Source of the DNA: Thereva unica | Taxonomy: Eukaryota > Arthropoda > Insecta > Diptera > Therevidae | NCBI GenBank assembly: GCA_949987705.1 | Contig: OX465286.1 | Span: 19,357,676-19,421,675, forward strand | DNA length: 64,000 nucleotides | Direction of reading: 5' to 3' | Shown here: one piece after another, positions 1,701-60,368 of the stretch | Layout: each line of letters begins with the position of its first letter | Position numbering within the stretch: position 1 is the first letter of the stretch | Notes under the pieces: model-generated | Told to the model about the DNA's origin: nothing | Database searches by the model: none | Seen by the model: only the letters and a program-made list of their open reading frames with translations | Program-made: the position numbers and the translations under genes

Positions 1701-3330
1701 TGATAAGGTGGACTCAGGTTTCTTAAGAAGCCGCACGTCGTACTGACCCTGGAAGCCTCCTCCCTATCTGAAGGGCCGACTCGCGTGCTGAATCGCAGGA
1801 GCTCTGCATTCAGTCCATCGGCTCGTTCGTGTGGCACACCTCTATCCCGACGGTAAACGTGGTATATTAAAGGTACTCCCTCTCTGTCTTGTATCAGTCC
1901 TAATGTATCTAGCCATTGGAATGCTTCGTGTGGTACATATCCTGTCCGTCTTGTCGTGTCATAGTCGCTTAGTCTGGGGAGAGGATTGGCGCTCTCTGCC
2001 GCTCTCACAACATAATTTCGGGTCAATCTGATTATGAAATTGTCTATCCTCATGGTTGCTGCTTTTCCGTACAGGATATCATTGGCATGGAAGTTTTTGA
2101 AAGTTTGACTCAGGCGTTCTACACATGCTTAAGCATGCCCATGGTGTTTACTAAAAAAGAGCCTCTTCGTCATTTGGAAAGCCTTATGGGTTTTGGCTAT
2201 AGCAGCACGTATATGACTCTCGTAATACATGGACTAATCCAGCCAAATTCCTAGATACTTAACCTCGGTTCTCTTCTCTAGCGTTTGTCCTCCATGGCTC
2301 CGAATATGAAACGATCGCCAGTTTCTCCTAACATCGCGTGGAGCGTTATTAAGAGGGGTCCTAAAGAGGATCGTTTCGCATTTTCCATGATTGATTTTCA
2401 ATTTCCTATCATCAGCATATCGCTCTATTTTATCGAAATCATGTTGCAGTCGCGTCTGGATTACGTCAATCTTCGGTCCTGTCCTGTATATAATAAGGTC
2501 GTCCGCGAAAGCCACGGCATGCGGAAGAAATCCAACTATATCGCTTATATAGATGTTAAAGAATAGCAGCGAATTCACTGCTCCTTGTTGCAACTCTTTT
2601 TTAATTTCTAAGACCTGTGAGGTAAGGTTCACACTTTTAACGAGAAACTTTTTCCCCGTTATCATGTCGTAGATTATGCGAAGCAGAGAATCGTTCATCC
2701 CATACCTGGTTAGCTTTAGTAGTAGCCCTTCAACCCATACAGAGTCAAAGGCCTTCTGCAAGTCAACCAGGCATGCTCCCGTACACTGTCTCTTTGCAAA
2801 ATTCCAGTGTATAACGGACAGGTATAGTGCCATGCTCCGCTCGAAATCCGAACTGGTTGTCCGGAATTATTTTATTTTCCTCAACCCAACTTGTCAGCGA
2901 ACGACTAATTACAACTTCAAATACTTTGCTGATGCTTGGAAGCAAGCTTATTGACCGGAGATTAGCTGGGTTTGATCTATCTTTAGTTCCTTTAGGCATA
3001 GGATATACCACAGCCGTTTTTCAGTTTTCTGGAAAATAGGCATTGTTCAAGCAATTGTTGAACAACGTGGTGTAGATGTCGATTGCGTACGGAGGTAGGC
3101 GCTTCAGAACCACATTCGGGATGCCGTCGATTCCTGACGATTTCTTATTGTTCAGCATTTGAAAGATTCGCAGAAGTTCATCCTTCTTCACGAATATTGA
3201 GTATCCGGTGCCCCTTGGGATGTTGTCCGCTGGGCAATCTTCATTGAATTCAACTAAATGTCGATTCTCAGATCTCCATACTCTGATTTCGTTCTGAAGG
3301 TTGAAGTGATTCAACAGAGCTTGATTCTCC
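1690..3330 (-). pseudogene. I/Jockey-group LINE reverse transcriptase (broken)
   Basis: Minus-strand RT domain spread over several frames. From 3314 down: a segment ending in SSGIDGIPNVVLKRLP (RT motif 0/1), then PANLRSISLLPSISKVFE and NQFGFRAEHGT (motifs 1-2), then LVDLQKAFDSVWVEGLLLKL (first palm aspartate), a QQGAVNSLLFFNIYISDIV motif, and FADDLIIY with the catalytic pair. A C-terminal tail runs to about 1690. Frame changes lie near 3015, 2830 and between 2234 and 2053. The endonuclease and ORF1 are absent. The VNSxLLFNIY form of the palm motif suggests an I-like or related clade, but I cannot fix the family by eye. Confidence 0.82.
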
Positions 3331-21434: not shown

Positions 21435-22442
21435 AGGTTAAAATATCTCGATTTTGCATCCCTAAGGATAAGCTGCAGCGGTAGTGCTTCTGTCCGGTCA
21501 GTGGTTTAGTTAGCACATCAGCTGGCATATCGTCTGTCTTCATGTATTGTAGATTAATTGTCCCTCTGGCCAGGACCTGCCGAATAAAGTGGTGTCTCAC
21601 ATCGATGTGCTTGGTTCGCTTATGGAATGTTGGTGTAGACGCTAATTTCTGTGCTCCCTGGTTATCGTTGTATATTGTGATAGATGAAATTTTATGTCCT
21701 AGTTCATCCGTAAATCCTGCCAGATATAACGCTTCCTTTGCTGCCTCTGATATAGCCAAGTACTCTGATTCGGTGTTCGAAAGTGCAACAGTTTGCTGCT
21801 TCCTTGATTCCTACGATATACACGCATTTGACATTTCAAACCGAAACCGAAACCGGTGTATGACTTCCTATCTTCTGCAGATGTCGCCCAATCCGCATCA
21901 GTATATCCAACTAAGTTTTTGTCATTTCGCCTGAAAACTAAACAAAGATTAGTAGTATCTTTTAAGTAGCGTAGTACTCTCTTCGCTGCTGCCCAGTGCT
22001 CTTGTCCATAACACGAATTAAATTGGCTCAATAAACTGACGGCATGCGCCAAATCCGGTCGAGTTGATACCGCCAAGTACATTAATGATCCAACCAAGTT
22101 TTGATAAGGGTAGTTTTTCTCTTTTTGTCCTTTCGAAAATTCTGCATCTACGTTCTTTTTCTGTAATTTCATGTTTGGGTCGAGTAGCGTCGATAATGGT
22201 TTACAATCTGTCATCCCGAAACGTTTCAATACCTCATTTGCATATTTTCTTTGACTCATGATTATTTCTTGATTATCATTTCTTTGATCAAACTCAATAC
22301 CAAGGCAATAGTGGATTTTTCCTAAATCCTTCATTTCGAAGCAATTCTTCAACTCTTGCTTAACATTTGCCATTATTTCTGGTTCGTCTGTCGTAATAAT
22401 TAAATCACCAACGTAAACTGCTATGACAACTGTGTGTTTTCC
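21435..22442 (-). pseudogene. copia pol: reverse transcriptase palm to RNase H
   Basis: C-terminal third of a Ty1/copia polyprotein. The RT palm shows IAVYVGDLIITT, in which the usual YVDD catalytic motif reads YVGD, an inactivating change. Then come LGIEFDQRN, LVGSLMYLAVSTRPDLAHAV and an RNase H with GYTDADWATSAEDRKSYTGF and NDNQGAQKLA, KHIDVRHHFIR, ending at a stop at 21433. A frame change lies near 21810. The protein is interrupted at 22443-22450 by a hAT element flanked by an 8-bp duplication. It continues at 23091. Confidence 0.92.
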
Positions 22443-22450
22443 TTTTCTTG

Positions 22451-23082
22451 TAGGGTGACCAGATTTTGTGTTGCGAAAAAGAGGACCCAAGAGGAATTCA
22501 GAAAAAAATGACGAAATATGTACAAAAAAATATCATTTTGGATTATGTATCTTAATTTATGTAATACATACTATAAATCAAACAAAAAAAAATACAGTTC
22601 ATTAACAAAATAAAAGTAAAAAAATATGACGAAAAAAATATAAATTATATTAATTATAGAATAATTAACGAAACAAAAATATAAAATAAATAAAAAACTT
22701 AACAAAAAATAAATTCATAAGTTCAAATAATTATCAAAATTACTAGTATTTTTCATTTGAAGAAATATTTCTTAAAATATTTGGTTTTGTTAATAGATAA
22801 TTATAAAATTGCGAACATGAGTATTCTTTAAAATTAAACTTGCATGAAATAATACTTTTAATAGTTTCTACGGACAACCTGTTTCTCTCATCAGTCCATT
22901 GGCTTGCTATTACGGAAAAAATTCTTTCCACGTTTGCATTATTTAAGGGAATTTTAAAAAAGGCCAATGCACAATGGCCAAAAAGAGGACAAGAACCATT
23001 ATTTTGAAAAAAGATACCGGACACATTTTTTTTGCTTCAAAAGAGGACATGTCCTCTTAAAAGAGGACTTCTGGTCACACTA
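22451..23082 (-). mobile_element. hAT transposon remnant inserted in copia, 8-bp TSD
   Basis: Ends TAGGGTGACCAGA and TCTGGTCACACTA are inverted repeats with a one-base difference. The flanking 8-mers are both TTTTCTTG (22443-22450 and 23083-23090). Subterminal AAGAGGAC words repeat at both ends. It is a deletion derivative: only the C-terminus of the transposase is kept. The duplication interrupts the copia RT frame exactly, so the order of events is certain: copia first, hAT later. Confidence 0.95.
22743..23024 (-). pseudogene. hAT transposase, C-terminal dimerisation region
   Basis: Minus-strand frame of 93 codons with FFKIPLNNANVERIFSVIAS, then QWTDERNRLSVETIKSIISC and a KFNF tail. This is the hAT C-terminal dimerisation region (Dimer_Tnp_hAT), where the conserved N-x-E-R-x-F-S core and the NRLS segment are clear. 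The BED zinc finger and RNase H-like catalytic core are deleted, so the fragment cannot transpose. The termini of the TAGGGTGACCAGA type and this domain agree on the superfamily. Confidence 0.88.
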
Positions 23083-23594: not shown

Positions 23595-24817
23595 ATGATT
23601 GATTTCGTAATAAATAATAGAAGGCTTTGGACAAGAGAAATTAATGAACCCAAAGAACGCAGATTACGTGGTTTTTTTTTTAACCGAGTTTTCGCAGTAG
23701 TTAAAAACAGAGATGAGGAAGAATTTCGGAAAATTACTAGGATGGGAGCTTCTCAATTCGATCTTGTTTTGAATTTGCTTAGAGAAAAGTTAACAAAGGT
23801 TTCCAATAGAGAACCTATAGGTGCAGAATGTAGATTAGCTTTGACTTTGCTGTGAGTCAATGCATTTATTTTAACCCTCTCTAATTTGCATATTTTCATT
23901 GTAGTTATTTATCGCATGGGTCGTCTAGACAAGTACTTGCATGGACTTTTAGAATGGGGAAATCCACCGTGCAAAAAATTGTCTTAGAAACTTGCGAAGC
24001 AATATGGGAAGAGCTTAATGGCATTTATTTAGCAGTTCCTCATGAAAATGAGTTTAAAACCATTGCAAACCAATTCTTTCTGAAAACTGGTATGCCAAAC
24101 TGTGCAGGTGCCATAGATGGTAAGCACATAAACATATTTTGTCCACCAAATGCCGGCTCAGAATATTACAATTATAAAGGACACCATAGTATCGTTTTAT
24201 TGGCAGCTTGTGACGCCAATTATTGCTTCACTCTGGTCGATATTGGCGCATTCGGTAGCCAAAGTGATGGTGGAATTTTATTTGAAAGTGCATTTGGAAA
24301 AATGATACTAAATGAAACGTTACCACTTCCTCCAAACACCGTCCTACCAGACTCAAACATATTATTTCCCTATTACTTTGTCGCCGATGCGGCGTTTCCT
24401 TTGAAACGAAACATCATGCGGCCATATCCTGGAAGAGACTTACGCAGGAGCAAAGAAGTTTTCAATTACAAACTTTCATCAGCGAGACGATACATCGAAA
24501 ACTCATTTGGAATAATGTGTGCGAGGTGGAGGATTTTATTAAATAACATACATTGCCATCCCAAGAATGTGGATAAAATCGTAAAAGCTGTAGTGGTACT
24601 ACACAATTTTGTAAAGCTCCATGATACCAATTATTGTCCCGCAGGCTATGTCGATTACTATGAAAATGGTAATGTTGTAGAAGGTCTTTGGCGGCGGGAA
24701 ACTGAGAATCTTTCATCGTATAATATATCACGGGGCCTTAATGCAAGACGCGAAGCTTTTAGATTAAGAGATTCTCTTCAAGATTATTTGTTTTCAAAAT
24801 ATGGAAATTCAAATTAA
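23595..24817 (+). CDS. PIF/Harbinger (HARBI1-type) DDE transposase, two exons
   Basis: Exon 1 (from an ATG at 23595, possibly earlier) encodes [20 protein letters not shown] and [20 protein letters not shown] 53-bp intron follows, GTGAGT at 23852 to AG at 23904; joining gives an in-frame [19 protein letters not shown], as in other Harbinger proteins. Exon 2 has the DDE_Tnp_4 catalytic residues: D in [13 protein letters not shown] in [16 protein letters not shown] in [16 protein letters not shown]. No stop or frameshift breaks exon 2, which ends at 24817. It would cut and paste the element with the partner DNA-binding protein. The upstream ATG at 23525 is in another frame, so the true N-terminus is uncertain. 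Confidence 0.9.
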
Positions 24818-26460: not shown

Positions 26461-28223
26461 CTTCTTCTTAAATGGAGCTACAGTCCTTGCAGGACTCGGG
26501 CCTATTGAAGTCTCCTCTTCCAGTCTTCTCTACGTCTTGCTAGCTCTCTCCAGTTTGATATACGAAGTTTTCCAATATCTTCTAGTACGTCATCCATCCA
26601 CCTATTTCTTGGTCGTCCTACTCTTCTTCTTCCAGATGGCCATTAAAAATCCTGGCTAGCATTCTTTCTTCTGGAGCCCGTAGAACGTGTCCAAGCCATC
26701 GCAGTCTGTTCAATCTTATGTATGTATGTAGATATGTTTATTTCATCATACATTTGTTGAAGTTCCTCATTTGTCCTAATGCGCCATTCGTTTTGGTTAA
26801 CCCTTACAGCACCAAATATTCTTCTTAAGATCTTCCTTTCGAAGATTTTAAGCTGGTTTTCTGTTTGTTGGGTCAATGTCCAAGCCTCAGACCCATAGCA
26901 TAGAACTGGGCGGATTAACGTTTTGTATAGTCTGTTTTGCATTGTCTTTAAATTTCTTTGTTTTTGAAGACCGGGACTAGTGCGAAATAGGTTTTATTTG
27001 CGGCTACGATGCGTCTATGGATGTCGTCCTTTATATGGTTCTTTATATTGTCCCTAAGTAGATAAAGTTTTCTACAATTTCCACAATATAATCGCCAAGG
27101 CTGATACTTCGTCCTAGCCGATGTCCTTGTTTTGATACGATCATATATTTTGTTTTTGTGTCATTTACTCGTAGATTGAACTTTGCTGACCTTTCTACAA
27201 TATTGAAAAAGGTTTCCTTTACCTCTTGTGCTTTGCGTCCAATTATGACTATATCATCTGCGAAGGCTAGTATCTGGATGTTCCTTGTGAAGATGCTATT
27301 TGCTCCATTAAGCTGTGTTTCTCTCATTATTGCTTCGAGAGCAATGTTAAAAAGTATTGGTGAGATTGCATCTCCTTGTCGCAGACCCGATTCTTGAGGA
27401 AAATTGGTTGAGTTACAACCTCGTATTCTCACTTGTGTTTCACAATTTTTGGTCATCATCCTGCAGAGATCTATTAATTTTCTGGGGAAACCCATTTCAC
27501 TCATCTTATTCCACAACTCTCTTTTATTTAGCAGATCGTAAGCATTTCTATAGTCTATAAAAAGAAGATGTATGTTAATGTTTTCTTCCCAGCATTTTTC
27601 AAGTATTTGTCTCATTATGAAAATCTGGTCTGTTGTCGATCTGTTCGTTCTAAATCCTGCTTGGTAATCACCTACTTTATCTTCCAAATGTGCTTTCAGT
27701 CTATTAAATAAAATATGTGAAAACACTTTGTAAGCTGTGTTCAGAAGAGATATTGGCCTGTAGTTTTTGCAGCTCATCAATTCACCTTTTTTATGGACTG
27801 GGACTATTGTGCCTAAAAGCCATTCTTCTGGCATCTTGCTGCCTGGCATAACTTCTCCCCACCATTTTTTAAGATTTCCGTGGGTATGCCATCTGGACCT
27901 GGAGCTTTGTGATTTTTCAGTTTCGCTATGGCATTTTCAACTTCCTCCATTGTAGGATCTGGCGTATCGTTTTCTGGGTCATCTGTATTACGGCTTTCCG
28001 CTGCTCCCTGTGTTAGGCTTATATTCTCTTTGAAGAAGTCTCTAAAGTATTTCTCCCACACCTTGAGTATGTCATCGATACTACTAGCTATAGTACCATC
28101 TTCTCTTCTTACCATGGTGCAGGTGGGTTTGTATCCTTTCTTAATCATGTTGACTTCTTTGTAGAAACTTCTAGTGTCTTTATTACTGTAGCTTTGCTTG
28201 ATCGTACTTATTCTAATTCTGAA
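26461..28223 (-). mobile_element. 5'-truncated RTE-like LINE in copia, 12-bp TSD
   Basis: The 1763 bp body is flanked by perfect 12-bp direct repeats TACCGTGCCCTT (26449-26460 and 28224-28235). Removing it with one repeat restores the copia reading frame. The LINE is in the same orientation as copia and lacks its 5' half, the usual result of incomplete target-primed reverse transcription. Its 3' end is an AAG-rich stretch, seen as CTTCTTCTTCTT on the plus strand. Confidence 0.93.
26643..28223 (-). pseudogene. RTE-like reverse transcriptase of the inserted LINE
   Basis: From the 5' side: FYKEVNMIKKGYKPTCTMVR, NHKAPGPDGIPTEIL (RT motif 0), NYRPISLLNTAYKVFSHIL, DYQAGFRTNRSTTDQIFIMR, LLFIDYRNAYDLL (first palm aspartate), SGLRQGDAISPILFNIALE and LAFADDIVIIGR (catalytic FADD). 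The C-terminal part reads LYKTLIRPVLCYGSEAWTL and KIFERKILRRIFGAV. The main RT frame (27849-27043) is open over 268 codons, so decay is limited to frame changes near 27830 and 27040. The endonuclease is lost by truncation. Confidence 0.9.
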
Positions 28224-28235
28224 TACCGTGCCCTT

Positions 28236-29201
28236 AGCTGACACAGATTGACTTCGTGTATTGTACGCTCGCTTTGTATAAACTTTTCGTGACCGCCCGT
28301 TGAACCTTGTTCGTAGGATCTTCGGTTTTTCTTTTATTTGTTTCCTGTTTTCTTTTGTACCTACTTTAGTGTCATTTTCTGGAGTAATTCGGATATTTTG
28401 GTTATCCTTTGTGAAGGCTCACTTCTTATTGTCTTTCGTCTTCATTTATTTTGCTGGAGGTAACATCTTCTATGTCAAAGCAATCTTCATATTTGCTTTT
28501 AAAATAAGGTGCGTTCATAAATTTTACATCTCGGCTGATAGTCACTTTCCGCGCCTCTGGTAACCATACACGATAAGCTTTGGACTCACTTGAGTATTCT
28601 AAGAAAACTCCTTCCTTAGACTTTATGTCAAATTTTCCCTTGTGTGGATTCTTATCTAAAATGAAGACTTTGGATCCGAAAATTTGAAAATAACTTACTG
28701 TCGGTTTTATTCCGTTCCAGACCTTAAATGGCGTTTCTCCTTTTAATGGACTCGAAGAGCATCGGTTCCTTGTGTAGTTAGCAGTACCAATAGCTTCCAC
28801 CCAAAAAGATGGAGGTGATCCCGCTTGGATCATTAAACTTCTTGCAGTTTCTATCAAAGTACGATTTTTACGCTCTGTCAATCCATTTTGCTGCGGTGTA
28901 TGCGGAACACTAAGTCTTCTCCTTATTCCATTTTCTTTTAAAAATTCATCAAATGCTTGGTTGCAGAATTCAGTCCCATTATCTGTCTGAAGATATTTAA
29001 TCCTTTTACCAGTGTGTGTCTCGGCAAACGCCTTATATTCTTTAAACACTGCGAACACATCGCTTTTGTTCTTCAGCGGATACACTTCACACCAACGAGA
29101 TCTGTCGTCGATAAAAGTGACAAAATATTTGGCCCCTCCTAACGATGTCGTTCTAAATGGCCTGCAAACATCACGGCTTTGATACAAATTTCACATTGTG
29201 G
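28236..29201 (-). pseudogene. copia pol: integrase core
   Basis: Integrase catalytic (rve) domain of Ty1/copia. Visible segments are SLGGAKYFVTFIDDRSRWC with the first catalytic D, IKYLQTDNGTEFCN with the second D, and PHTPQQNGLTERKNRTLIE with the catalytic E. Then follow GTANYTRNRCSS, FQIFGSKVFILD and the linker KPKILRTRFNGRSRKVY. The long frame (29187-28426) is uninterrupted, then a stop or frame change leads into the hinge. The right edge at 29201-29204 is the CAT duplication of the 3.5 kb element. Confidence 0.92.
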
Positions 29202-29204
29202 CAT

Positions 29205-32200
29205 TAGTCCAGTAAATAGGTCGAAAAAAAGGCCTTCGTAATGCGAAAAATACCGCACGCGATTTTTTTTTACCAAATATTTTTATATATTTTTATGAGC
29301 TTAAATTCAAAATGGCGTCATCCCCACCCTTATGCTTCACTTACAATGAAGGGAAACGCGTTTAATTCTATATCTCAGAAACTATGCGTTTTACGACAAA
29401 AATGTATATAATCTTTTTTGTAGATAAATAACTTTACATTTTTTTACATTTAACTTTTTTGTTCAGAATTTTTTTTTGTAAAGTCAATATGTTCGGAGTT
29501 ATAGTGCTTCAAACTTTATGTATCACTTTCTTTGCACTATATTTCGTGAACGGTTATCCCGCCATTAAAAAATCCTCCCTAAGACTTATAGAACACACTA
29601 TTATCTATAATTTTTGCTTTAATCATTTTTACATAGGACTAATATTTCACGAGTTATAGCGCCTTAAATGTAGCAAAACGTAAATAAACTGATTATATCG
29701 CTCATCATTGCCCACATTTGTAAAGGCAACTTTTTTCTATAAAGTTGATATTTATGGATTTATTACACCTCAAAAGTTTATTAAAAATAGTTTTTTTCCA
29801 ATATCTAGTCAACTATTTATTTACGATGACAAGTTATACCAACAAATTTGTTTATTATAAAACTCCGTATAAAATTTAATTCAAAATTTTTTTTCTAGCA
29901 TTGTGGTTTCCCCAGTAGGCCTAATCCACAAGAAAATAAAGCAATGATGCTATAACATGTTATTTAGCCTCATATGTTTCGAAGATGTCGGTTGACAATC
30001 GGATAGACAAATGAAGCTGCCATCTAATGACTTGACGTTGTCTTCGTCGAATAATATATCTGGGAGACTTGAAAACTCGCAAATGTTCTCATTTATTTTA
30101 TTGTCTACAATTTCGCAATTTCCTCCACTGCAGTTGAGCAAATTATGGCACATTTGAGACCGGCCTTGCGGCATCCACAGGCACCGCCACAATTTTTCGT
30201 ACATTTGCAAGATATTAATTTTAATAAATTTGCTGGTGCCGGAGCAATTGCCATTGGCACTGGTTGTAAGCCAAATCTTGTTCGCTTCCAGCCCCATTCC
30301 TCCGGGTCTTGATAACTATCAAACCAAGTTTGCACTTGATGATATACTCGAAATGAGTGAAGTCGAGCAGCATCTTAAGTTGGAGGCAGACCTGATAAGT
30401 TCTCTTTGGTTTTTGTAGCCGATTTTCCAAAACATTTGAATCTAAGTGAATTAATATTGGTTTCTGACGAGCTACCTCCATACAGCTCAATAAAGAAACA
30501 CTCTCCAGCTTCAGCAACCATATCTGGATCTATTTTTTTTTTCTTTAAACAATTCTACTGAATTTATGAGTTGTGGATTTTTTTTTTGAAAATTGGATAA
30601 AACTTTTGCTTTCTCCATGCCGTATATTGAAGACGTTGTGTCACAACCACTGAAAGCGCGAAGAAAGAGAATATTGTTTGCAACAATATTTGGAAATTTT
30701 AAGCACTGCGGAGTATACAGTGCTTCCGGAATACGACCCTTCCCCAGTTTTCTGAACTGAAGTGATCGCCGACATATTTTACATATTTTCCGCAAATATT
30801 TACAAAGGAAACATTCTTATCCCATATGACTCGATGCAAAAGAAAACCACCATCTACGACCTCCATCCGATAATTTTTTATTTTGCCGTTATCTGTTAAT
30901 GGCGTAAAACAACTATATAGTGAAGATTTTGTACCCTTCCGCATTCCTTCTTCATTGAATAATGATAAAGGATAAGGCGCAAGCTCATAAATAATATTAT
31001 CTTTTAAATCCTTTTCTGTTTCCTTCGAAATGCACATTCGTTGGAACAGAAGAAGTGGATCGATGGGAATTAGTGTTTCATCAATTTTGATGCTACTACT
31101 GGCGGTACTTATTGGAAGAACACGATCATTTCGCCTAAACTTCACCGACTCTATAGGATGACCAACTATTCGAGAGATCATGTTAACGCCTGTTTCGTAT
31201 GAAAGATGACAATTAGCGGAACATGCAACGATACCTGTGCTAATAGATAGTAACACTGGATTTTTTAAAAAAGGATCATGCTGAGCAAACCAGTTATCTA
31301 ATTTTACGACGTCAGCATTATCACGAGTTACTCGAGCGGATCGAGAATCAACGTGTTGTTCTGAAGTAGAGCTGAATATACCGCAGTAAGTTTCAACCGA
31401 TTCGCTAACGTTTTGTAAAAATAACATCCCTAAAGTCCACCTAGCAAGTGCAGGAACAGAAAACCTTCGACCTTCGGTAAGACCTCCCGAAGTTTTCATT
31501 GATCGCATCATTGTTTGTTCGATGGTCATATCTACATAATTCCTGACCAGAATTTATCAGTTCGTCGAATGGTGAAGTAAACTTTCGTTGTAAACTTTTC
31601 AAACTCATATCGTGGCATTTTTTCGTGCAAGACAGCCATATCTTGCGTGGAAATAAGGCAACATTTTTTGAATTACATCTAAGAGCAAATTCCAATTACC
31701 AGATCGCTCGGCTTCGATAAATTGCTTCACTAACGTAATCACACGGAAATATTGAATCCAGAGTTTTGCCGTGGGACCCCTTTTTTCAATTTCTTTCAAT
31801 TTATTCATCGAATCTCATATAAGCTTGTTGCACATCTATATCTATCTCTGCCTGAAGAACGGCAGACCTATCAAATTTATTAACGGCGAGATCCATTGCG
31901 TCACGTTCACAATCAGTGAATTCAGTACAATTCAATTTTTTTTAGCTAGCGCCAAATGAGTAAGGAAGTGAGCTCTTATTGCTCTGGAATATGCATGGGC
32001 GACCATTATCTTTTCAACGCTATTGGAAGCGTATACAATTTTAAAGACATCTTCTAGACCACTGCCAGCCATAATGTAGCCGACAGAGCCCAAGAATGAC
32101 ATAAGTAAATGAAAACCCCCTAAACCCCCTAGATATTTGCAAAAAAACATTTTTAATAAACTTTTGAGGTGTAATAAATCCATAAATATGAACTTTATAG

Positions 32201-32742
32201 AAAAAAGTAAAGACAACAAATATGGGCAATGATAGCGATATAATCAGTTTTGAAATGACACGTGGAAAGAAAAAGATATTGGGAAATTTTTTTGAATTTA
32301 CGTTTTGCGACATTTAAAGCGCTGTAACTCGTGAAATATTAGCCCTATGTAAAAATGATAAAAGCAAAAATTATAGATAATCGTGTGTTCTATAAGTCTT
32401 AGGAAGGATTTTTTTATGGCGGGCTAACCGTTAACGAGATACAGTGCAAAGAAAGTGATACATAAAGTTTGAAGCACTATAGCTCCAAACATATTGACTT
32501 TACAAAAAAAATTCTCAACAAAAAAGTTAAATCACTTATTTATCTACAAAAAAGATTATATACATTCTAGCATAGTTTCTGAGACATAGAATTAAACGCG
32601 TTTCTCTTCATTGTAAGTGAAGCATAAGGGTGGGGATGACGCCATTTTGAATTTAAGCTCATAAAAATATATAAAAACATTTGGTAAAAAAAAATCGCTT
32701 GCGGTATTTTTCGCAAAGAAAAAGTACCTATTTACTGGACTA
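29205..32742 (-). mobile_element. 3.5-kb TIR transposon, 3-bp TSD, possibly Academ-like
   Basis: Ends TAGTCCAGTAAATAGGT are perfect inverted repeats, flanked by CAT (29202-29204) and CAT (32743-32745). The inverted repeats are very long: about 620 bp on the left (29205-29820) and about 610 bp on the right (32130-32742), similar throughout but with scattered differences. Between them lies one minus-strand protein region. Excision of the element plus one CAT restores the copia zinc-finger frame. A 3-bp duplication, long inverted repeats and a non-DDE-looking protein fit what I recall of Academ transposons. PIF/Harbinger is the alternative for 3-bp TSD, but the protein does not fit it. Confidence 0.85.
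29950..32130 (-). pseudogene. Large protein of the 3.5-kb TIR element (GCDTT motif, Cys-rich tail)
   Basis: Roughly 700 residues over several frames. In order: FLGSVGYIMAGSGLEDVFKI and NSVEKIMVAHAYSRAIRAHF; GPTAKLWIQYFRVITLVKQF and ERSGNWNLLLDVIQKMLPYF; TIEQTMMRSMKTSGGLTEGR; a 276-codon open frame (31529-30699); ILFLRAFSGCDTTSSIYGME; and a tail CKCTKNCGGACGCRKAGLKC. I recall this domain order from multi-copy, unnamed proteins in aphids, other insects and cnidarians. The GCDTTxxxxxMxKAK segment resembles the GCDYxxGIxGIGPKxA loop of FEN1/XPG nucleases; XPG-like nucleases are reported in Academ elements. That link is inference. Frame changes near 31600, 30750 and 30320 make this copy inactive. 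Confidence 0.6.
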
Positions 32743-32745
32743 CAT

Positions 32746-32877
32746 GCTTTCTTTATTATTCAATTTTATTCCGAGGACTCTCTTCTTCTTGGCCATTTCT
32801 AGCAAACTTCGTAAGTTTATATGACCTAACTTCTGATGCCAGTCTTCAATTAAAGATTTTTCTTGGATTACATTCAC
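32746..32877 (-). pseudogene. copia pol: GAG-pre-integrase zinc-binding segment
   Basis: Minus strand reads SLIEDWHQKLGHINLRSLLE and ends KESM at the insertion site; the next copia piece begins PQCEICIKA. The H-x3-H plus C-x2-C arrangement is the integrase zinc-binding (HHCC) domain of Ty1/copia. It is cut by the 3.5 kb element between histidines and cysteines, and bounded upstream by a Harbinger derivative. Confidence 0.88.
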
Positions 32878-32880
32878 ACT

Positions 32881-33816
32881 GGGGCTTATTCTCCAATTCG
32901 TTTCACGTGAAAAATTGTTCACATTCCAAAAGTGCTATTCTGGCAATCGCCTGAGGTGAATACATTCGTTGTGAAGTGATTAAAGGTTTCACCTAATTTT
33001 TCAAAGGGGAATACTCTATTACGAAGTTGTATTTCGGCAGTTATGTACGAAATGGCAGCAAAGAAGTGAGTATTTCATATTTATAAAATTATTTACTCAA
33101 ATTTTCAATTTTCCGATAATTATTGGTTTTGTCATACTGAAAAGTTACGAAGGGGAAACAGTTTGATGTGCTTTTGGGTGAAATGGAAAAGCACAAACAT
33201 GTAGCAAAAGGGCAGTAGTATTCCGAAAATTTTATGGCCAAAGAACGATACGCGGAAATATGGAAAGAGACTACAGTGCGCTTAAAAAGTCTTGGGCCCC
33301 CAACTAGGAAAGATACCGAAGAAGGTAAACTGCTATTCGTATAAGTTACACTGACTCAAAAATGTGTTGCAATATTTTGGAAATTAAATTATTTGTCCTT
33401 GTCCTTTCTTTGTGTAATAAGAAAGATTGGGCGCAGGATGACTGGGATAATGTAGTTTTTACTAAAATCAGTGTATATGAACTGTAAATGCTTTGTCTCT
33501 TATTTGGCGAAGTCGTAAGGATATTATTTCCAAGTCATCCCTGCTATCACTATTCCTATTACTACTGCTAAACCACAATTCTGCACATGTCATGTTAAAA
33601 CTATTGATCTTTTAACAAATTACTCCAAAAATACAACTATTTTATTTTTATAACGATTGAAATTGTCATTTTTATAGCGATTGACAGTTTCAGTTCCACT
33701 TGTTCCAGGTGAAACTTTTTTTCGATTCATGTGAATCACAGAATCGACTCAATAACATGAAGTGAAATGCAAGTGAAGTGTTTCTTTCACGTGAAACGGA
33801 TTGCAGAATAAGCCCC
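32881..33816. mobile_element. 936-bp PIF/Harbinger derivative with 3-bp TSD
   Basis: Inverted ends GGGGCTTATTCTCCAATTCG and, at the right read inward, GGGGCTTATTCTGCAATCCG, continuing through TTTCACGTGAAA. The flanking trinucleotides are ACT (32878-32880) and ACT (33817-33819). The copia frame is restored when it is removed. It encodes no transposase but keeps part of the second Harbinger gene. The termini differ from those of the Harbinger at 23361, so two Harbinger lineages hit the same copia copy. Confidence 0.88.
33170..33485 (+). pseudogene. Myb/SANT-like domain fragment of a Harbinger element
   Basis: Plus-strand open pieces read HVAKGQ, then SENFMAKERYAEIWKETTVR and LKSLGPPTRKDTEEG, followed by a likely intron (GTAAAC near 33324) and KKDWAQDDWDNVVF. 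The LxSLGPPxRxxxxW pattern is characteristic of Myb/SANT-like partners in PIF/Harbinger transposons. A stop after KGQ and the short length show decay. It supports the superfamily call of the surrounding 936-bp element. Confidence 0.65.
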
Positions 33817-36522: not shown

Positions 36523-37216
36523 CTTCTTCTTTAAACTCCTTTAATCCCTCATGGGACATAGGGCGGAAACAGTTGCCCTCCAGCGGACTCTGTTTTGCGC
36601 GACAGCTCTTAGCTCCGACCAGGATCTCCCAATTGTTGCGGCTTCTTCTAGTAGGGTTCTCCTCCACGTTGTTCTAGGTCTTCCTACTCGACGGGAACCT
36701 TGCGGATTCCAGTCAAGGGCCTGTTTGGCTAGATTTTCGTTTTCGCGTCGCAAGGTGTGGCAAACCCAATTCCTTTTCCTTCGCCTGATTTGGTCGTCTA
36801 TCCTTTCTTGACCGGCACGGCGCCATAGTTCTTCGTTTGAAATTCTATCCTGCAGGCGGATTTTTAGGATACGACGAAGGCATCTGTTGATGAAGACTTG
36901 TAGGCGCCCGGTAATGAATTGGGTGACTTTCCATGTTTCGCAACCGTACAAAAGAAATGCCTTAACGTTGGAGTTGAACAGCCGCAATTTGGTGTTAGTG
37001 GAGATCACCGTTGATCTCCATATGCGGGACAGGCATGCATATGCGCCTCGTGCTTTATTTATTCTGGAACTTACGTCTTCTTCTGCCCCACCATTTTCGG
37101 TAATAATGCTACCGAGGTAGCAGAATTTATTTACCAGTTCCACGTCACGGTTATTCAGCGCTGTGCGTTCAATGGTGTTTGCATTTATCCGCATTTCTTT
37201 AGTTTTAGTCGGATTT
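36523..37216 (-). mobile_element. 5'-truncated RTE-like LINE with 10-bp TSD
   Basis: The body of 694 bp is flanked by perfect direct repeats ACCGCTCTAT (36513-36522 and 37217-37226). The 3' end is GAA/AAG-rich next to the left repeat, as expected for a minus-strand LINE. The single long frame (37194-36541, 217 codons) reads ELVNKFCYLGSIITENGGAE, KLRLFNSNVKAFLLYGCETW, ISNEELWRRAGQERIDDQIR and GRPRTTWRRTLLEEA, the thumb and C-terminus of an RTE-type polymerase. The frame is open throughout, so the insertion is relatively young. Confidence 0.9.
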
Positions 37217-37226
37217 ACCGCTCTAT

Positions 37227-37900
37227 ACTCTTCTTAATTTGAGGCGCTTATTCTTACCACAGATTTTAAGAAGTATAAAACATTTTTTTTAGGTAAAGTT
37301 TTTTTTCAATTTCAAAATCTAATCATATATTTAGCCTCGGGTACCACAAGGTTATGTGGCGGGCCTCGGGATTAGGACCTGCTTACAGAGCACTGTTAGG
37401 TGTTCGTTTGCAATGATTATTCTCGGGTTTTGATAGAGAAAGTGAGACAGAGAGAAGTGAGAAGATTTATTATTATTATTTTGTGGCTTATACACGCATT
37501 TCTTGGTCGACCTTTGCTTCGCATGGAATAGTTAAAACTAACACACTATTTTAGACTATTTTTCAAGCTCATTTTTTAACTCAGATCCAGGTAGCAATCA
37601 ATTTTCCTCAGGTGGCGGCTACATGGGAATTTCTTGTGGCGCTAGATGCCCCTTGAGAGCCCCATGTAGGAAAATGCACAGGAGCCGCCATGAGGCATTG
37701 GGATTAGACTCATAGGGCCCCATATTTGCACTCGCTATATGCAAAATATTCACATGACTTTCTTTGGGAAACTTACTACATCAACACCAACCAGAACACA
37801 TTCCTCTCTCCACATAGATAGGAAGTGCAAAGGAAGCATTTTTTGATGGTGGAAAACCCAAGCAAGAAATATAAAGCTCTCAAGGCCGGTAAAATTGAAT
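37227..37900. other. Spacer
   Basis: Contains TTATTATTATTA (37469) and a weak hairpin around GTGGCGGCT/AGCCGCCAT (37612 and 37684). No gene recognised. Confidence 0.35.
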
Positions 37901-52484: not shown

Positions 52485-53847
52485 TCTGAACATTTGTGTT
52501 GTTAATGCAAGAAGCTTAAGAAATAAAATGGATGAATTCAGATTAATGTTGGAACTCAGGAAAATTCATGTTCTGTTGGTAAGTGAGACTTGGTTGAAAA
52601 CTGGAGTCCCGTCTGCTCTAGTTTCCCTTCCTGGTTTTTTGATGCATCGTAATGATCGCATAGGTCGTACTGGTGGGGGTGTCGCCATATATTGTGCATC
52701 ATTGCTCTCCTCAAAAGTGGTGGGCAAATCGTGTGGCTCGCAACTTGAATTTATTGCGGTAGAAGTAAAATCTGCCGGTGACAAATGTGTTGTAGTCAGT
52801 GTATACTGTCTGCCCAATAGTTTTAACACTGAGATTGGTACTCAACTTGCCAACCTTATTGCAAGGCTCTCTCTGCACTACGAAAACATAATTGTTGCCA
52901 ATAATCGTTCGACTGCACTTAAGCAATTCCTTGTATCGCTGGATTTACATATCTTGAATGAACTACCAACATGTTTGAACTGCCAGAATCCCTCCCTACT
53001 CGATATTCTAGCTACCACTGCCACGGATGCTGTATTAAAACACAGTCAAATCTCCCCGCCTAGTTTTCTTGATCATTACCTACTATTTCTCTCAACTAAG
53101 TTTGCATTTTCTCCTCCCTCTTCTTCTTCTTCCATTTCGTATCGTGACTATAGCAATATTAATTTAGATCAGCTTTCTGAAGTCGCTGCGGCAATGCCGT
53201 GGGATGATATCTATTACACCACTTGTATCGACACTAAAGTTGATCTATTAACTGCTTTTATTCATCACCTGTTTTATCAGTGTGTACCTATAGTAACGAG
53301 AAGGCGCCAGGTATCTCGCCTTTGTCCATGGTATTCCCGTGAACTCCGCGATCTGATAAATCAGCGTGAGTCTATGTATAGGCGCTATCGCAGGACCGGG
53401 ATTCCTAGGTATCGTAATGCTTACAAACAACTACGCAATCTAATCACTTGTAAAGTCAAATCTGCTAAACGGGAGTTTTACTCCCGCAAGCTTGATCCCG
53501 CTCTAAATTCCAAACAACTTTGGTCCAATGTTCGTTCTTTATGTATTAATACTTCTGTACCCACACCTTCCGATGTGGAATTAAATCTTCTCAATGCTTC
53601 CTTTATTCAATCTCCTCCCGATCCCACACTCCCCTCTCCCACGTACTCCTCATCATCTAGCTCACTCAGTACTGATGGTTTCAACTTTCGTTGTGTAGAC
53701 TCCTGTGAAGTTCTTGAAACATTGCTGTCCATCTCATCTAACAGTATCGGTTGTGATGAAGTTTCTCCGCGATTTCTTAAGTTACTCTCTCCACTAATTC
53801 TGGAAACCATCACTCATATCTTTAATTACTGCGTGACAACTTCATAA
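52485..53847 (+). pseudogene. LINE endonuclease and linker
   Basis: Frame of about 450 codons without a stop. LNICVVNARSLRNKMDEFRL and VLLVSETWLKTGVPSALVSL, then RNDRIGRTGGGVAIYC and FIAVEVKSAG, are motifs of the APE-type endonuclease that nicks the target. The later part (WYSRELRDLINQRESMYRRY, LDPALNSKQLWSNVRSLC) is the conserved linker before the RT. It ends at a stop at 53847, and the RT continues in another frame, so one frameshift occurred near 53835-53860. The catalytic residues at the extreme N-terminus are lost through truncation. Confidence 0.87.
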
Positions 53848-53849
53848 GT

Positions 53850-54729
53850 GCCCCTGATTTGGAAAAGTCTGTTGTGATTCCATTACCAAAAAAATCCTGT
53901 CCAGTAGATTTAACAGATTATCGTCCTATTAGTATTCTTCCCTTTCTTGCCAAAGTCTTTGAGAAAATTCTCTTCGGTCAGATCACGAGCTATATTGAAT
54001 CTAACAATTTCCTTTCTAAACTACAATCTGGCTTCCGTAAAAACCATAGCTGCGAAACTGCTGTATTGAAGGTAACTTCAGATATTCGTTCAGTCCTCGA
54101 TCAGGGTGATGTAGGATTACTTGTTCTTCTTGATTTCTCCAAAGCTTTTGACTCTGTAGTTCACTCGCGTTTGCTTTCCAAACTTAGGACATTCTATAAT
54201 TTTTCTTCTTCTGCCATCAGAATTTTCTCCTCCCTTCTGTCTAATTGGTTACAGTGTGTTCGTCATAACGCGGTTGCGTCTTCATTCATACCAGTACTTG
54301 TAGGGGTTCCACAAGGCACAACTCTCGGTCCTCTCCTTTTCTCGCTGTATGTCAACGATGTTACCTCCGTTATTCAACGCTGCTCATTTCATCTATATGC
54401 TGATGATCTTCATTTGCACACCTCGTGTCCCCCTAGTAAAATCAGATCTTGCATCTCAAATCTTAATGATATTCTGTCCCAAATAAATTAGTGGAGTTCT
54501 TCCAATTTTCTCAAATTAAATCCTAATAAGTCCAAAGCACTCATCCTTAAACGTCCCAATAGGTCCCTGGACAATATTCCAAATATCGTCCTTGATAATA
54601 TTCCTCTTCCCTTTGTTGAATGTGTCAATAATCTCGGTATTATTATTAATGACAGACTATCCTGTTGCGATCATGTCTCACTTATACTTTCCAAGATCTA
54701 TGGCACATTGCGTAAACTTTGGCTCTATG
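53850..54729 (+). pseudogene. LINE reverse transcriptase domain
   Basis: KSVVIPLPKKSCPVDLTDYR, PISILPFLAKVFEKIL, LSKLQSGFRKNHSCETAVLK, LLVLLDFSKAFDSVVHSRLL (first palm aspartate), VGVPQGTTLGPLLFSLYVND and FHLYADDLHLHTS (catalytic YADD) form a complete RT core. A TAG stop at 54489-54491 falls in LSQIN-stop-WSSSNFLKLNP, probably a glutamine codon changed to stop; the frame is otherwise open to the hAT insertion. Apart from this stop and flanking frameshifts it is well kept. Confidence 0.9.
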
Positions 54730-58816: not shown

Positions 58817-59890
58817 TTATAATTCATCATCGTTTATTAGTTGAACATTATTTAAATCTTCCAGGCCTTCTCTGTGGGCAGCGTCAAATGATACATTAAG
58901 GAGGCTTCCATCAGGATATCGGACGTTTTCTTGATGCCGCGCATACCCAAGGTACCACAAAATACTCGCCACGTGTGCACATGTGCCGAGTGTTCTTGCC
59001 CCTGTTGGACATGTGCAATAATACCCAGTTACTAGATCATTTTGTTCTCGTACTTCTTCTTCCCTGTTGAAAGTTATAAAAACTTGATAGTTTTTCGCGT
59101 TTCGAAACCTAGAATGAAGTCCGACCCGTATAAGATTATCGTCGTGAATTGAAGTATCAATCTGAAACTCTTCATTTCCATCTCTTTGCAGTTTGCCTTG
59201 GATGTATGATCTGGGAAGAGCGACTTGATAAACGCCTACTGTCAGGTCTCTCAAATAATCTATATCAAGTCTTGGAAAATGCGGCACCTGATCGTGAACT
59301 AGTTCCCACTGAGCGGCTCTGTTTAAAAGGTTGCCTTGACGCACTCGAGTTTCATCGACATCGTTGGCCTGTTGAGCTCGCTGTAACATTTCTCTTGCAA
59401 GTTCAACCGTCGCACCTTGCATATAGATAAGAGGATGGTATTTGTTGATAAGGGCACCAGCTATTCTATAGTCAGTACCGATGTGTTTTGCATTTTGAAT
59501 GAGAAATGTATGGTCGAAATATTTGAAGATAGTTCGAAAATGTCCATTCCGTGATTCAACTAACCACCTATTTTTCTTAAACAATTGAGTATCATTTGCT
59601 TGCTGTGTCGTGAGTTGCTGCTGGCCACGTTGTAATGGAGCTGGCATTTTATAATTGATACCTAATTGACGTAAGAACGGAAGAACTTCGCGATAACCTC
59701 TGTCCACCAACATTATATCTCCGTTTTGGAACCAATCTCGCAAGGTCTGACCATCTTTTACAAACTCTTCTTGAAGAATGGCGGCGTCATTGTTGTAATA
59801 ATCCGAAAAATATGGACCCAAAACTGCAAGAATGTATCCATCGGTTCCAACAAGTATTGTTGGTTTTAGCAAATGCCGGTGAACTCTTGT
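58817..59890 (-). pseudogene. DDE transposase C-terminal part with SWIM zinc finger
   Basis: Minus-strand frame ending at 58817. It reads HRHLLKPTILVGTDGYILAV and LGPYFSDYYNNDAAIL, then MLVDRGYREVLPFLRQLGIN with the second catalytic D, and KKNRWLVESRNGHFRTIFKY with the catalytic E. These are the DDE_Tnp_4 features of IS5-related transposases. Near residue 325-345 lies a C-T-C-P...C-A-H-V motif (YYCTCPTGARTLGTCAHVAS), a SWIM zinc finger with CxCx(n)CxH spacing. The frame is uninterrupted for 350 codons. Its first 30 codons overlap the upstream frame, so one frameshift lies near 59885. Confidence 0.85.
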
Positions 59891-60368
59891 GAATGTAAGC
59901 GTATGCAGCGTCACATATAACAATCGCTCGGGGTGTCTCTGGTTGCTGATTGTACAGTTGATTTGCGAACGGAGTAACATGCTGATTTATGAAATCCTGT
60001 CTGCTAATGGCACTTGTACCAATATTGGCAGGAACAAATCTCATTGTCAATGATTTTCTGACTGCACTGATAGCCATGCTGACCGCTTGCCTGCTAGAGT
60101 AATTAAACAGAATTTTCAAGAACTCGTCTGGCAAACCTTGTCTCAGTTTGCAAAGATAAGCCATAAGATCTGTTTTTTTTTTCACATACTCGTATCTCAT
60201 GCCGTTTTCTTCAGGAACTGGATCACAAAACGCTAAAAGTTCTTGAAACTGTTCTTTATTGAGAGAGAGCAGATAAGAAAAATCCTCTTCTGATACTAAT
60301 TCGAATGCATCTTCTAGTCGCGGTTGGGAAGTTGCTATATTGCGAAGTTGCTCCAAAAAGACTTGCAT
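59880..60368 (-). pseudogene. Transposase middle part: helix-turn-helix and first catalytic Asp
   Basis: Minus-strand frame of 160 useful codons: LNKEQFQELLAFCDPVPEEN, then KKTDLMAYLCKLRQGLPDEF and LFNYSSRQAVSMAISAVRKS, which form the HTH_Tnp_4-type DNA-binding region. IVICDAAYAYIHKSS then holds the first catalytic D and the AYxYIxKSS signature shared by IS5-related eukaryotic transposases. After this the frame leaves homology near 59885 and the protein continues one frame over. Hence two frameshifts in the whole gene, and inactivity in this copy unless the assembly contains errors. Confidence 0.83.

Follow-up and report, generated by a model that had tools for sequence, protein, structure and literature searches.

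A decayed transposon copy inserted in a copia element

The window, a stretch of 64,000 nucleotides from the Thereva unica genome, contains a transposon copy of 3,538 bp at positions 29205-32742 (Table 1). The copy is delimited by perfect 17-bp inverted ends (29205-29221 and 32726-32742). With up to 3 mismatches allowed, this 17-bp end matched at 2 places in the window, both of them the ends of the element, while 100 shuffled versions of the window gave a mean of 0.17 matches and only one of the 100 reached 2. The ends belong to gapped inverted repeats of ~0.6 kb that are ~90% identical over two long blocks, and CAT is found on either flank. Thus, the perfect terminal repeats, the CAT target duplication and the long inverted repeats that the sequence-only reading had described are all present, although the long repeats are imperfect. 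The outer ends, TAGTCCAGT, are common to copies of the window family and to the L104 relative described below.

The transposon copy sits inside a copia element. When the flanks are joined with a single CAT, the frame is open for ~80 codons across the site (...HQKLGHINLRSLLEMAKKKRVLGIKLNNKESMPQCEICIKAVMFAGHLERHR) and includes the zinc-binding part of copia that precedes the integrase. As the zinc motif is continuous across the junction, the boundaries of the insertion are fixed. The copia integrase frame starts ~20 codons past the insertion site and is not the joined frame, indicating that the copia copy is itself broken. That removal of the element would restore a whole copia gene is ruled out, as only the ~80 codons are open across the site. 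A copia-type RVT_2 ORF lies ~6 kb from the integrase part, and the two are separated by one RVT_1 ORF and one DDE_Tnp_4 ORF, so the copia copy may have been broken up at more than one point. The window contains three RVT_1 ORFs, LINE-type judging by the matching model, the second of which is near the copia integrase piece, two DDE_Tnp_4 transposase ORFs, which we take to be Harbinger-type, and one DUF6451 ORF.

Table 1 Features of the transposon copy, its copia host and other ORFs of the window
Feature	Position	Strand	Remark
Left target-site duplication	29202..29204		CAT
Left terminal inverted repeat	29205..29808		begins TAGTCCAGTAAATAGGT
Right terminal inverted repeat	32129..32742		ends ACCTATTTACTGGACTA
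Right target-site duplication	32743..32745		CAT
Remnant, P0004 residues 312-806	30687..32102	-	end of DDE-like domain (H and E conserved), then middle region and VVDGG; interrupted by several stops and changes of frame
Remnant, P0004 residues 895-970	30538..30768	-	another frame
Junction of ~370-bp internal deletion	30750..30756		blastn matches to its left and right share 7 bp, a short direct repeat
GCDTT motif	30634..30648	-	counterpart of GCDY (D225) in Exonuclease 1
Remnant, P0004 residues 965-1103	30138..30554	-	post-GCDTT region up to CXC domain
Remnant of C-terminal nine-cysteine CXC domain	30115..30209	-	split by frame change
Copia integrase (rve) and SH3-like domains	28426..29187	-	downstream of insertion site, other frame than joined one
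Copia sequence, zinc-binding part before integrase	32746..32922	-	upstream of insertion site; ...NNKESM/PQCEIC...
Copia-type RVT_2 ORF	21699..22532	-
RVT_1 ORF	2234..2866	-
RVT_1 ORF	27043..27936	-
RVT_1 ORF	53826..54491	+
DDE_Tnp_4 ORF	23885..24817	+	E 3e-29
DDE_Tnp_4 ORF	58817..59986	-	E 8.5e-7
DUF6451 ORF	36541..37233	-	E 4.5e-14

The minus strand of the element matches the ant protein P0004 over three stretches in two frames, with extra frame changes and stops inside the coding remnant; a single-frame reading contains 13 stops in 705 codons, a count that includes the last codon and the out-of-frame stretches. The motifs GSGLEDVFKIVYASNSVEK, GPTAKLWIQY, GCDTT and CKC...CGCRKAGLKC, previously noted on this strand, are all there. 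The description of this strand as encoding one large protein had to be abandoned, as the remnant changes frame repeatedly, holds stops, and lacks both the nuclease core and ~630 N-terminal residues, beginning at about residue 630 of the 1,484-aa relative P0108. The core was lost with ~370 bp that are present in sister copies such as L078, L095, L097, L101 and L103, in which the stretch reads ATIVFDGY...EDADMLIV...VGEDIDLLVLL. Copies L068, L069 and L070 match straight through the deletion junction, and the deletion is thus common to other copies. Of the seven nuclease acids considered below, the window copy keeps only the first (VVDGG) and the last (GCDTT). As its nuclease active site is mostly gone and its transposase has lost the first acids, it cannot give a working protein, and a comparison of the window protein with Pfam, ORF by ORF, produced no informative match. 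The window copy is a decayed, non-autonomous copy and not itself a nuclease gene.

Other copies share the ends and the 3-bp target duplication

A search of the 910-Mb Thereva unica genome yielded 189 matches from 40 scored among 1,669 candidates, and the copy set was composed of 36 fetched loci (L068-L103) and the window copy. Both ends, taken as the outermost pair with no more than 3 mismatches in 17, were found in 18 of the 37 copies; in the remaining 19 one or both ends were absent from the fetched stretch, and these were left out of the count of target-site duplications (TSDs). Fourteen of the 18 paired copies, the window copy included, have identical 3-bp flanks, so that the check proposed in the sequence-only reading, whether other copies share the ends and the 3-bp duplication, is answered in the affirmative for most of them. 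When the flanks were shuffled over 20,000 rounds, a mean of 1.67 copies showed 3-bp identity, the maximum was 8 and no round reached 14. The duplicated sequences vary (CAT, AAT, ATT, CTG, AAA, CTA, TGA, TAT, TGG and TTA). L095 and L096, whose flanks are identical, may represent a single site present on two contigs, in which case the count would be 13/17. The four paired copies with no 3-bp duplication are L069, L074, L075 and L103, some of which may be composites; the flanks of L075 share 4 bp, TAGA. Mapping of the 36 copies to the window element showed that the repeats are conserved and that the interior is deleted and rearranged in many different ways.

A relative with an unbroken frame fills a defined element

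Searching the Thereva unica genome with P0004 uncovered several related families in which the frame is open over a long stretch. One member, L116+L104 at C4:52587054-52593310, is 6,257 bp long and contains one uninterrupted ORF of 1,486 aa between inverted repeats of ~475 bp (94% identical blocks), with the outer ends given above and the TSD TAT. Window-family sequence, including a window-family end, flanks it on both sides, and it is thus inserted in a window-family copy. Outward extension of five members of the L104 family recovered both ends in four, of which three have a 3-bp TSD (TAT, TAC and TTA) and one, L105, has none; in L106 the left end was not found. The L104 relative ties the protein family to a transposon independently of the broken window copy. 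The proposal that precise ends would connect an orphan protein family with a defined transposon is thereby borne out, one L104-family ORF filling an element with defined termini.

A third family, L113-L115, shows 48% identity and has open frames of 1,135-1,252 aa. Its copies are 99.6% alike and are probably recent. At their boundaries a left break is common to the three copies, but a search for the ends found neither a long inverted repeat nor a TAGTCCA end. The DUF6589 model gave six matches over its curated cut-off in this genome, at C2:104505628-104506359 and five other places, and none in 14 control genomes. Five of the six lie in open frames of 803-805 aa, and these are absent from the rows of the P0004 search; they possibly represent a further, shorter family.

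A widespread protein family with invariant acidic residues

Three overlapping searches gave 106, 325 and 356 relatives, with the best 120 listed for each of the last two. The named relatives come from ants, wasps, beetles, moths, butterflies, whitefly, aphids, thrips, a mayfly and a stick insect and, beyond the insects, from a spider, a limpet, an octocoral and a single rust fungus; for several of them the database name is 'Tesmin/TSO1-like CXC domain-containing'. These records, together with uncharacterised LOC proteins and those carrying DUF6589, match the present family in sequence and in the nine-cysteine motif, but their entries give neither the limits of a transposon nor a function, to which the present analysis adds ends and TSDs. 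Members in Bemisia tabaci (P0009, P0031 and P0212) belong to a species for which one annotation lists 1,097 Academ copies, 42 of them full-length, in nine lineages (PMC9143410). The Frankliniella fusca (thrips) records P0077, P0220, P0225 and P0226 bear names such as Leucine--tRNA ligase and Elongation factor 4, which for a transposon protein are apparently misannotations. Against viral contigs, alignment A4 gave 58 pattern matches and no relative, and TAGTCCAGTAAATAG matched in 59 stretches, once in each, with no stretch carrying two ends; the latter matches are judged to be chance.

The relatives' protein of ~1,480 aa is predicted to consist of N-terminal Cys/His zinc-finger-like motifs, a DUF6589-related domain, an XPG/FEN1/EXO1-like nuclease and a nine-cysteine CXC domain. 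In alignment A4, which contains 33 chosen full-length members of 1,326-1,547 aa and is numbered as in P0108, residues D437, D440, D603, H634, E770, D844 and E848 are invariant (33/33). The spacing from the second D to the E is 158-168 in the 32 of 33 members in which all motifs were found. The nine cysteines at the C terminus are kept in 31-32 of the 33 members; one row has a gap and one has an alanine instead. The DUF6589-related domain, with its invariant D, D, H and E, is a probable RNase H-like DDE transposase. In Pfam scans at E <=0.1, DUF6589 was matched in 14/33 (A3) and 13/33 (A4) members, followed by Aim19 in 2/33; no DDE_Tnp model and no helicase model appeared among these 33+33 relatives, and the sole transposase-named match was OrfB_IS605 in one of the 66 (E 0.038). 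Residues 400-860 of P0155, used as a query, retrieved 356 proteins, and the best 120 had only PF20231 in the Pfam column; no link between the DDE-like domain and the AcademH proteins, which bear a helicase, was obtained among these 120.

A catalytic region resembling that of flap nucleases

Profiles of three alignments (A1, A2 and A4) were run against 177,635 sequences of the PDB with an E limit of 10. The only protein matched was Exonuclease 1 (4, 4 and 3 distinct sequences), with modest best E values of 0.0013, 0.00058 and 0.0087, and no transposase was among the matches. The three results are not independent, as A1 and A2 share most members and A4 consists of other rows of the same family. 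Single-member Pfam matches to XPG_N (E 0.0019), XPG_I (0.019), 5_3_exonuc_N (0.027) and PIN_4 (0.047) were also seen; unrelated one-member matches of like strength in the same lists, OrfB_IS605 included, look like chance.

The profile alignment places VFDG on VFDG (D78), DAD on EAD (E150, D152), EDvD on EDSD (D171, D173) and GCDTT on GCDYL (D225) of Exonuclease 1. GCDTT, which the sequence-only reading had placed in a nuclease-like loop, is thus part of a nuclease-like region, aligning to the last conserved flap-nuclease carboxylate. Seven acids of XPG/FEN type, D1070, D1110, D1182, D1184, D1207, D1209 and D1263, are conserved in 31-33 of the 33 A4 members, apart from one gapped row and a single replacement of D by E, and in the wider alignment A1 they are found in 48-54 of the 51-54 rows with a letter. 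Six of the seven are aligned to acids of Exonuclease 1. As described in PMC7515719, XPG contains seven conserved carboxylates, and their order is that of the family. The likeness to EXO1, FEN1 and XPG therefore comprises the profile match of the catalytic region and the seven carboxylates in order. Unlike those enzymes, the nuclease of the present family lies within a probable transposase that ends in a CXC domain, and its score is modest. The closest homologue, P0002, reads GCATT at the position of GCDTT.

Probable placement in the AcademX lineage

The AcademX nuclease is of the XPG type. TSDs are TTAA in Kolobok, 7-8 bp in the P superfamily, ~8 bp in Zisupton/KDZ and TWA in Harbinger, and EnSpm/CACTA elements have ends of the CACTA/CACTG type. 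In the description of PMC10045372, AcademX elements have TSDs of 3 or 4 bp and a nuclease besides a DDD/E transposase, while AcademH elements have TSDs of 9 or 10 bp, a difference related to helicase versus nuclease. The present family shares the TSD length and the nuclease of AcademX: 14 of the 18 paired copies have a 3-bp duplication, one has 4 bp and three have neither, and the relatives carry the nuclease. Academ elements are long, with a mean of 5,565 bp in a curated library (PMC10294476), and the unbroken relative here measures 6,257 bp, of which type the window copy would be a 3.5-kb deleted derivative. The best filing is thus very probably the AcademX lineage of the Academ superfamily, a placement made from the description of TSD and nuclease. 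With a probability of about 0.85, we conclude that the locus holds a decayed long-inverted-repeat DNA transposon of the cut-and-paste kind in a copia element, whose relatives encode a transposase-nuclease protein and which is best filed under AcademX.

That the family instead constitutes a separate, unnamed superfamily, combining a DUF6589-type transposase with a flap nuclease and a CXC domain and related to Academ while standing outside it, is unlikely. It would accommodate the finding that DUF6589, a family of 'unknown function', is the only recurring named Pfam family, and that the AcademX placement was made by description; a text search of a limited literature collection found no mention of DUF6589 and none with Academ and XPG together as whole words. 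Yet the pairing of a nuclease with a TSD of 3-4 bp is what PMC10045372 describes for AcademX. We consider it quite improbable that another superfamily with a TSD of ~3 bp (EnSpm/CACTA, Harbinger or Zator) acquired an XPG-like nuclease. Duplications of 3 bp do occur in several superfamilies, but the ends, TAGTCCAG, are not CACTA-like, which speaks against EnSpm/CACTA, and the varied TSD sequences are not the TWA of Harbinger. Moreover, no DDE_Tnp Pfam model was matched, and DUF6589 was found in 27/66 relatives against OrfB_IS605 in one.

There is very little to commend a Kolobok, P or Zisupton/KDZ element, the first two of which the sequence-only reading had named as examples of a refuting outcome; the TSD length of 14 of the 18 paired copies contradicts all three. 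The CXC domain is reminiscent of KDZ proteins, but the TSDs of the paired copies are mostly 3 bp and varied, so that neither the TTAA of Kolobok nor the length seen in KDZ is found, and the 7-8 bp of the P superfamily is equally absent, identity over 4 bp being limited to 1/18. In addition, no Pfam model named for these families was matched at E <=0.1. The locus is almost certainly neither a host gene in working order nor a functional nuclease gene: conserved motifs are still readable, but they are interrupted by stops and frame changes, without the N-terminal part and nuclease core, inside a copia element.

A possible two-nuclease transposition pathway

For the transposon filed here under AcademX, the protein might act as follows. 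The N-terminal Cys/His motifs would bind the inverted repeats, the DDE domain would cut the 3' ends and join them to phosphates of the target that lie 3 bp from one another, and the FEN-like nuclease would trim or cut the 5' (non-transferred) strands. The CXC domain would bind DNA. The window copy would have moved in trans, using protein from other copies. Tentatively, and with considerable doubt, we propose that transposition depends on the flap nuclease as a second catalytic centre, the DDE domain acting on the 3' strands and the FEN-like domain on the 5' strands. The contrast between AcademX and AcademH in the description of PMC10045372 raises the idea that the nuclease helps to set TSD length. 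If true, this would explain the 3-4 bp TSDs of nuclease-bearing elements as against the 9-10 bp of their helicase-bearing Academ relatives, and would define a two-nuclease transposition pathway within a single polypeptide.

A widespread protein family that has been unnamed or labelled 'Tesmin/TSO1-like CXC' now has exact ends and TSDs, and annotators can mask such genes as transposons. With the unbroken relatives in the same genome, the reason for a transposase to have a flap nuclease of its own can be put to the test.
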